Source: Liolophura sinensis (Eukaryota; Mollusca; Polyplacophora; Chitonida; Chitonidae). Taken from it: DNA of 64,000 nucleotides. Location of the stretch: positions 9,548,001 through 9,612,000 of the forward strand of contig NC_088300.1 of NCBI RefSeq assembly GCF_032854445.1, given 5' to 3'. A model generated the notes under the pieces. The model was given only the letters and a program-made list of their open reading frames with translations, did no database searches and was not told the DNA's origin. Position numbers and translations under genes: made by a program. Below are positions 19,101-22,100 of this stretch, one piece after another (within the stretch, counting starts at the first letter, position 1; every line of letters starts with the position of its first letter).

Positions 19101-22100
19101 TCTACAAGTCTTTCTGTCACTGATTTTTTTCAACAGGTGAGTCACAGATAATAAAACAAGTGTGGTGCCTCTTCTCGAAGCAATCACAGCAAGTGCATAG
19201 AGAAAAACCACGACAAGAGAAACATTTACTGTAAATGATTTTTTTGATCATTTCATTTCACAGTATGTTCTTGACCATCAAATAAGCTACAGTACTTAGC
19301 CAGGTGCTTTAATGAAAAACATAAAAGTGACAACATTTTACTTATGAACATTTCTGAAATATCATACAAGGCCTTTTGCAGTGGTCCAGCAAAGGACTTA
19401 CTTCAGATTGGTAAAAGTGCCAGAAAATGGTCTTGCTTACTTGTATTTTTGAAAAAAATTGGAAGGTTCAAACAATTTCCCCCATTCTTCTTTCTGCATG
19501 TATATGTTATTTGTGACTTCAAGGCCTGTGAGTGAAAAAAAAAAAAGAAACGGGGATAAAAGGAAGAAAACTAACCCTCCTAAGTTTTGTGTACTATGTT
19601 TATATTTGATTATCTCCCTTGATCATACATATGTATATGAGGACAAATCTCAAAATAGTATCTGATCAATCATTTGTAAAAACTTTATACACTTGATAAA
19701 ACATCTCTGATATAAGTACTTTATAAAATTTGTTATATTACATTTTTTTTCTTATCAAACACTTCTTCTTAAAACAGTATCAGGTCAGTTATTTCTAAAA
19801 CCTCTCCGGTAAAAGTACTTTCTCGAATCTGTTACATTACAATCTTTTTCTGACAGGACACTTCTTCTACATCAGTATCTAACTGGTAAGCAGCCTTACT
19901 CACACATATACATTACTTTCTTGATGTGCTGGCAAGAAAAAGCAACTGAAGAACTAAAGAGCCAAATGGTGTCTTACATTTGATATGAATGTTTGAATAA
20001 TTAAACATTGGATCATTTTGTTCTCGGATGCAGATTGTGAAAAAAAATTTCAAATACTGGCCTTCTTTGAACTCTTCGACCATGATTGAGCGAGTTGAGG
20101 CGGTGACATTGTAAGTGGAGTTCTGCTGAGGGTATGCTGGTGTGATAATTGGCATGAGATGAAACCTGTCTGGGGGGTGGATCTGTAACGAAATCAGAAA
20201 ACATTACTTAAAACTCTAAATGCAAACAAAACAAAGCACAACAAAAAATCCATATTTGATAATCAAATCAAAATTTTCTGTAAAATGATTCAAGATTGAA
20301 ACTTTTATTATACGACCCAACAACCCATTTTTACCAATTCTGAACGGTATAACATGCAGAGAAGCAGCTGATATTTCGTGCAAGGTAATTATTTGGGCTA
20401 TTCTGAAACAACAGCTAAAATTAAATTGGATTTCTGCTGATCGATTTTTGTGTCAAAAGTATAAAGTCTTTAGAGAACATAAATTTGCAAACTCAATAAT
20501 TAACTTGTTTTCTGTATGTACCCGTGGATCCCAGACAGTAAAGCTTACCTTGTTGTCTGCACCTATCCTCGGATCCAAGACAGTAAAGCCTGTCTTGTTT
20601 TCTGTACCTACCTTTGGATGAAAGACAGTAAAGCCTGTCTTGTTTTCTGTACCTACCTTTGGATCAAAGACAGTAAAGCCTCACCTGTCTGATGCACATA
20701 CCCTTGGATCCTACACAGTATAGCCTAACTTGTTTTCTGCACTTATCCTTACATTAACAGTAGAGTAACTTGTTCTCTGTACCTACCCTGGGATCCCAGA
20801 CAATAAAGCCTAACTTTCTTCTGCACCTACCCTTTGATCCCAGACAGCAAAATCTGACTTGTTTTCTGTACCTACCCTGGGACAACACACAGTAAGCCTA
20901 GCGTGTTGTCTGCACCTACCATTTGATCCCAGACAGCAAAATCTGACTTGTTTTCTGTACCTACCATGGGACAACACACAGTAAGCCTAACATGTTGTCT
21001 GCACCTACCATTTGATCCCAGACAGTCAAGCCTACCTTGTTTTCTGTACCTACCCTTGGATCCCATACAGTAAAGCCTAACTTGTTTTCTGCTTCCATCT
21101 GTTTGAGCAGGACAGGCTGAGGCCACTCCCTATAAATGAAAAAAAAACATCTTAGAACAAATAAACCCATATTCCTCAACACTTTTCCACACTAAGACAT
21201 ACGTTTATTTCCTTGTGAAGTGTAATTCCTCTAACAATGTCTCTTTACACACCACAACAGAGATGACAGCAGCCATACTGTATTTTACTGAGCGAAAAAA
21301 ATTAGTGAAAAATATCCCTGACATCAAACCAATGAGTAAATACAACCTTAATTGCTTGAAATCTGTTCAAGACATCTTATTCACAATGTAAACTAACTAT
21401 TTTGACATAAGTTTCAGCCTTTGATCCACAAACTTCAATACAATACAAAAATGCTACTATTTCCACACTGTAATTATATGTTAGCATAACATCAATAACA
21501 TACAGCCACTGACCATATAAAATAGGAAGCATAATTGTCAAAACAAGTCTGAATAACATATATAACGACTCACCATTTAGAAAAGACCAGGAAGAACTTC
21601 TGTATTAAAGTAGCCGGGGCAGCATTTGGATAGAGCTGACAGACTCTGGCTACTAACATAGCCCAAGATACGCCACCAAGGAAACCAATAGCATTGGAAT
21701 AAATACCCTTCTCTATCAAAAAAAATAACAAATCATTAGTTCTCTCAAAATGTTTCAAAATATTGGTCACAGTGGTGGTTAAAAAGGCTGAGGAATTAAG
21801 GTACCTTGAGCTTTCACTTTTTGTCATTCACGTGTACCAGGGTTTTTTGTCAAATTCATGTCCTTCATTTTATGACATAAGTTTTCAAAATCTTACATAT
21901 TTCATGCAAACTAGCATTTCAAGCTTATAACCACCATATCTACACACCGTCTGTAAGAATTATTTTGTTCATATCTTCTTGTTTCTACATTTGAGAAAAA
22001 GGTTGTATATGTCTGAATGACACACTTGTTAACCAGACTATTTCATACAGAAAACTTATGAAAACCTATTTCTTACTTTTGGCCCACAATTTTATTGCTC

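Follow-up and report, generated by a model that had tools for sequence, protein, structure and literature searches.

At one exon-intron junction of a poly(A) polymerase gene in the chiton Liolophura sinensis, the end of the exon and its 5' splice site are repeated in tandem into the intron, forming a minisatellite in which the authentic donor is followed by a row of near-copies of itself. The gene lies on a 64,000-nucleotide stretch of contig NC_088300.1 (positions 9,548,001 to 9,612,000; the whole stretch is referred to here as the window, with coordinates counted from its first base) of an assembly, GCA_032854445.1, that the relevant passage of PMC11068029 presents as Liolophura japonica, the name having since been corrected to L. 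sinensis (PMC12441733). It is highly probable that the array is a junction-spanning minisatellite of the type known from lancelets as mirages, and that it is tolerated because the exon-near donor is used and the intronic copies are mostly silent. In the myosin and kinesin genes of the same genome, roughly one surveyed exon edge in sixteen also has local copies.

The array occupies positions 20501-21092 on the minus strand, where Tandem Repeats Finder (TRF), run on the window, detects 13.3 copies of a 45-bp period (74% matches, score 582) and, at 20503-21092, 6.6 copies of an 89-bp period (79% matches, score 627). Shuffling of the segment 20401-21200 gave a TRF row with a score of at least 50 in only one of 50 shuffles. 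In minus-strand orientation the array begins within the poly(A) polymerase exon, and what is repeated is the final 39 nt of this exon together with its GTAGGT donor; the units measure 41-45 nt, and the longest exonic stretch per copy is 39 nt (median 38). The initial annotation, made from the sequence alone, had described about thirteen 45-bp units that copy the last dozen codons of an exon and its GTAGGT 5' splice site, giving a row of donor sites, and this anatomy is confirmed. The 12 intronic copies differ from one another, and 10 of them retain the GT, in the form GTAGGT in eight, GTATGT in one and GTACAT in one. Thus the array shares two features with mirages, namely a tandem unit that spans the exon-intron boundary (up to 39 nt of exon plus the donor, the end unit being exonic) and splice signals that are kept in many of the units, though not in all. 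In the alignment of the half closest to the exon, units 1, 3 and 5 form one group of similar sequences and units 2 and 4 another; this is where the 89-bp, two-unit period is clearest, and it suggests past unequal exchange. The array was found at a single place in the genome, as six other matches to the query cover its bases 1-68 only, outside the array, in a search that leaves simple repeats and highly frequent words out of account.

The assignment of the gene to poly(A) polymerase in the initial annotation is upheld by two matches to the Pfam family PAP_central on the minus strand, one at 20000-20191 (E 1.2e-13, above the curated cut-off) and the other at 20964-21140 (E 4.8e-5, below it). These were the only two PAP_central matches in the 609-Mb genome, and they belong to one gene, in a search that weak matches may escape. 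The exon that supplies the array is 76 nt long (21054-21129, minus strand), as judged from the sub-cut-off Pfam match, an alignment to human PAPOLG (PDB 4lt6) and its acceptor and donor context, and its last 39 nt are the unit with which the array ends in the exon. It terminates in ..GGATCCAAGG, followed by the authentic GTAGGT donor at 21053 (21048-21053). The next exon, supported by the Pfam match and the same alignment, begins at 20182 after TTACAG, so that the intervening intron measures 871 nt; position 20000, to which this exon was followed on the minus strand, is the limit of the search and not a boundary. The labels exon 9 and exon 10, under which the pair was initially annotated, are retained from that annotation and are not a count from the gene start. 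When the two exons are joined through the exon-near donor, the alignment to residues 285-348 of 4lt6 is ungapped at the junction, its sole gap lying about 10 residues upstream; the exon-near donor is therefore predicted to make the conserved enzyme, and production of a conserved poly(A) polymerase would require it. Elsewhere in the window, a 27-bp array at 13343-13874 begins about 20 nt past another likely poly(A) polymerase donor, GATGAG/GTAGCT, and contains no evident exon copy, the exon in this case having been assigned by eye.

Were the intronic donors to be used, the first copy (21009-21053, minus strand) would stand apart from the rest. It is 45 nt long, open in frame and followed by a GTAGGT donor at 21008, so that its use would insert 15 residues. 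The 11 further copies (20522-21008, minus strand, 41-45 nt) carry GT at 20964, 20919, 20875, 20830, 20786, 20701, 20656, 20611 and 20521 and have lost it near 20746 and at 20566, and translation from each of these nine in-register donors reaches a stop. The open first copy and a stop soon reached in the next one had both been pointed out in the initial annotation. A switch between isoforms would call for units that are in frame and open, and the first copy is alone in this respect, as a stop follows the use of nine of the ten in-register donors that have GT. An off-register donor at 21035 would add 18 nt.

The frequency of such junction copies was surveyed in myosin heads and kinesin motors, the exons of which were located one at a time in this genome, in 16 and 20 regions, respectively; the regions were picked for their dense exons and not at random, and the sample is one of two gene families in one genome. 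The survey drew on 61 of 81 myosin profile matches, the other 20 lying outside the fetched regions and matches with stops being retained, and on 66 of 132 kinesin matches, the remainder lying outside the fetched regions or having at least two internal stops. Exon edges were set with simple splice-site scoring in the vicinity of each profile match, so that single edges may be wrong, and edges at which no site scored over the threshold were excluded, which left 105 of 122 myosin and 109 of 132 kinesin edges. Each edge was represented by 16 exonic plus 14 intronic bases, and this 30-mer was sought, with a minimum of 24/30 matches, in the 2 kb that adjoin the edge on its intron side.

Local copies were found at seven of the 105 myosin edges and seven of the 109 kinesin edges, a combined rate of 14/214 or 6.5% (95% interval 3.9 to 10.7), with donors (8/104) and acceptors (6/110) both represented. 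Ten of the 14 positive edges have at least three copies; the positive in region L037 is a weak one, with one copy at 24/30 matches. The second kinesin match of region L036 is itself an array copy, and hence a false exon, and removal of its two edges gives 12/212 or 5.7%. The copies are local, in that comparison of the edge 30-mers with the other loci of their own set (24.9 Mb of comparisons for myosin, 22.0 Mb for kinesin) gave no match. Among other non-exon 30-mers, 315 of 1996 in the myosin regions and 308 of 2030 in the kinesin regions (together 623/4026, 15.5%) had a copy of this kind to one side, and among windows in exon interiors the counts were 12/836 and 9/782 (together 21/1618, 1.3%). 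Edges are thus copied at about 40% of the background rate of the other non-exon positions and exon interiors at less than 10% of it, which is the pattern expected of near-random growth followed by selection against damage to exons. A preference of arrays for exon edges, which an overlay of TRF rows on the exons had raised, was rejected, as copies are less frequent at edges than elsewhere outside exons (odds ratio 0.38, p 0.0002). Of the 297,033 bases in the window and loci L009-L044, 45,904 (about 15%) lie in minisatellites with a period of at least 10 and at least 2.5 copies.

Across the survey the junction copies are spaced from 27 to about 140 bp apart, and many of the spacings are not multiples of three; the in-frame 45-bp spacing in the poly(A) polymerase gene is therefore probably a one-in-three accident. 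The exonic stretch that is copied is frequently short; in L028 and L013 its median length is 7 or 8 nt. The larger arrays, counted at 20/30 matches or better, include 50 copies of a myosin acceptor (L013, position 2998, mostly 31-32 bp apart), 16 of a myosin donor (L019, position 3285, mostly 31 bp apart) and 27 of a kinesin donor (L036, position 2642, mostly 73 bp apart), the longest of the last carrying 104 nt of exon. In the segment 2450-4520 of L036 the end of a kinesin exon is copied about 25 times, and the 104-nt exon piece recurs at the far end of the array, so that two near-equal exon ends stand 1,680 bp apart.

How might such an array have arisen and persisted at an exon edge of the poly(A) polymerase gene? 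A short tandem duplication may by chance have spanned the 3' end of the exon and the 5' splice site, and the array would then have expanded into the intron through slippage or unequal exchange, including the duplication of two-unit blocks. Minisatellites would arise and expand in this way across the whole genome, expansions within exons being eliminated and those across junctions being mostly tolerated. Tolerance is to be expected in the present case as the exon and the donor nearest to it come through every duplication intact, and as the spliceosome is proposed to pick the donor nearest to the upstream acceptor, by exon definition, across an exon of 76 nt followed by an intron of 871 nt; the intronic donor copies would then stay mostly silent. 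With large flanking introns, the splice sites closest to each other across the exon have been found to be favoured, according to the relevant part of PMC9225289, and splicing is reportedly undisturbed by the lancelet mirages in the Adh3, globin, troponin C and PGBD5 genes, as stated in passages of PMC3087553 and PMC3902484.

Several observations weigh against this reading. Some model substrates with two equal donors favour the donor nearer to the intron. When each unit of the poly(A) polymerase array was scored as a donor, as the initial annotation had proposed, with a simple matrix, eight of the ten GT-bearing copies reached or exceeded the 3.85 of the authentic donor, the best being 6.17 at 20656 and 20611, and the energy of the U1 duplex equalled or bettered the authentic -9.2 kcal/mol in five of the ten. 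Off-register sites at 20684 and 20548 even score above in-register copies. Moreover, in short introns it is instead the sites closest across the intron that are paired, as the same part of PMC9225289 has it, and a passage of the lancelet globin paper (PMC3087553) says that the copied AG/GT signals could be cryptic sites. Finally, the splice dinucleotides in the copies are slightly better conserved than other columns (phase-averaged, 0.92 versus 0.87; Wilcoxon p 0.006), an excess that pure neutrality does not predict.

This last comparison was made in ten arrays, comprising that of the poly(A) polymerase gene and those at nine positive edges out of 14; the small number of copies in L016, L017 and L022 led to their omission, and both edges of the second L036 match were likewise set aside. 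The percentile of the splice dinucleotide among column pairs averages 0.62 in the ten arrays (p 0.11) and falls below the middle in two of them, L013 and L028. Base type does not explain the remaining excess, as in 36 arrays away from known junctions GT deviates by -0.003 and AG by -0.009. The splice dinucleotides are not being lost from the junction copies, and there is at most a weak hint of excess conservation. Two apparent signals of strong conservation were rejected. One, relative to the authentic junction (198 of 220 copies, 0.90 versus 0.71 expected), had included differences that are fixed as well as columns from beyond the unit; the other, relative to the array consensus (0.952 versus 0.874), had the site centred in an ungapped window, and phase-averaging reduced it to the values given above.

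The retention of the dinucleotides, together with donor scores at or above the authentic one in eight of ten copies, would suit a regulatory decoy. In such a scenario some transcripts would use the intronic donors and be lost to mRNA decay after meeting the stops that follow nine of the ten, so that the length of the array would tune the level of poly(A) polymerase, and the open first copy would yield an isoform longer by 15 residues. This scenario is nevertheless unlikely, as comparable arrays stand at acceptors as well as donors of unrelated genes, often with spacings that are not multiples of three, and as the lancelet precedents are described, in the parts of PMC3087553 and PMC3902484 concerned, as leaving splicing undisturbed. 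A function in copy-number-dependent isoforms or as a splicing decoy, judged from the sequence, finds no support in this analysis. It is likewise decidedly improbable that the junction-spanning minisatellites of chitons constitute a standing, genome-wide layer of competing near-identical splice sites, the signals of which would be kept by selection and the copy number of which would set, separately for each gene, how accurately it is spliced or how much mRNA it yields, the poly(A) polymerase gene being one instance.

Alternatively, the copies might assist the authentic site, with U1-binding sites downstream of a mediocre donor recruiting U1 snRNP and so boosting the use of the exon-near site. 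The modest score of the authentic donor, the eight equal or stronger copies nearby and the weak excess of dinucleotide conservation are in keeping with such an aid. A donor array is also found, however, beside a strong authentic donor (L019, position 3285, score 8.03), where one of 16 copies scores as high, and the conservation excess fails the percentile test, so that this explanation is very doubtful. The chance that the array is an assembly artefact or a collapsed repeat is slighter still and close to negligible. Tandem repeats are error-prone in assembly, but the 592 bp of the array fit easily within a HiFi read, for which PMC11068029 gives a mean length of 8,347 bp, and its copies differ from each other.

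The reading preferred here, a mirage-type minisatellite tolerated at the junction, places the chiton array beside several known systems. The lancelet mirages (Adh3, the globins BflGb6 and BflGb9, troponin C and PGBD5) likewise have tandem units spanning an exon-intron boundary, with unit lengths in the globins and Adh3 of 10 to 160 bp in the portions of PMC3087553 and PMC3902484 that list them. The chiton case differs in that its host is a mollusc and not a cephalochordate, in that up to 50 copies of a single acceptor occur (at least 20/30 matches, L013), and in that junction copies were measured as common over two gene families, whereas the lancelet cases are single genes. Variable internal tandem repeats in human segmental duplications also lie at exon-intron boundaries, with a mean unit of 30 bp, and can form novel introns, as described in a section of PMC2812944; they are tied there to recent segmental duplications and alter transcripts, whereas the chiton gene was found once in its genome, and any effect of its array on transcripts is hypothetical. 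Intron gain by duplication of an AG/GT proto-splice site (Rogers, as cited in a passage of PMC3087553) begins with the same tandem duplication carrying splice signals, but no new intron is present at the poly(A) polymerase locus, where the copies lie inside an existing one. In Caenorhabditis elegans, minisatellites of the CeRep25B type occur near regions of alternative splicing; these form a repeat family with splicing motifs, as the pertinent part of PMC4039745 presents it, whereas the chiton array is a copy of a local exon edge.

Among the matches listed from the open-licence literature, as represented by titles and the openings of abstracts, there was no case of a mirage in a mollusc. The searched passages of a comparative chiton genome paper (PMC12005716) make no mention of minisatellites or tandem repeats, and in those of a paper on Conus genes (PMC3862624) minisatellites are mentioned in one reference title only. 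As arrays of the mirage form were already known from lancelets, what seems new is how common they are in a mollusc. Taken alone, the poly(A) polymerase array is a curiosity. If the sampled rate holds, very many introns would have an authentic site in competition with near-copies of itself, numbering from several to dozens, and the chiton arrays would offer a natural test of how the spliceosome chooses among equal sites, one that could be carried out on existing RNA-seq and without constructs. They would also extend mirages from lancelets to molluscs and represent a natural source for the gain of introns and exons.

Other arrays in the window touch genes in different ways. At the end of a CINP gene, identified by a PDB match of the exon, TRF and the sequence reveal a 78-bp unit in 20.3 copies with 95% matches (49714-51293, plus strand), in which the last 23 codons and the TGA stop are repeated downstream of the stop; an AATAAA lies near 51342, by this array. 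Arrays of about 39-43 bp between 48002 and 49173 begin about 40 nt past a likely CINP donor, TTTG/GTAAGA, and have no evident exon copy, the exon again being assigned by eye. The units of a 46-bp array at 40515-41612 (23.9 copies) often contain TTTGATTTCAG, an acceptor-like string. Rfam at gathering thresholds gave no match in the window. Outside the window, contig C99 (108,685 bases) has seven COX1 matches about 15.5 kb apart and is probably a head-to-tail mitochondrial genome, one unit of which includes a long tract translating to alternating Y and M.
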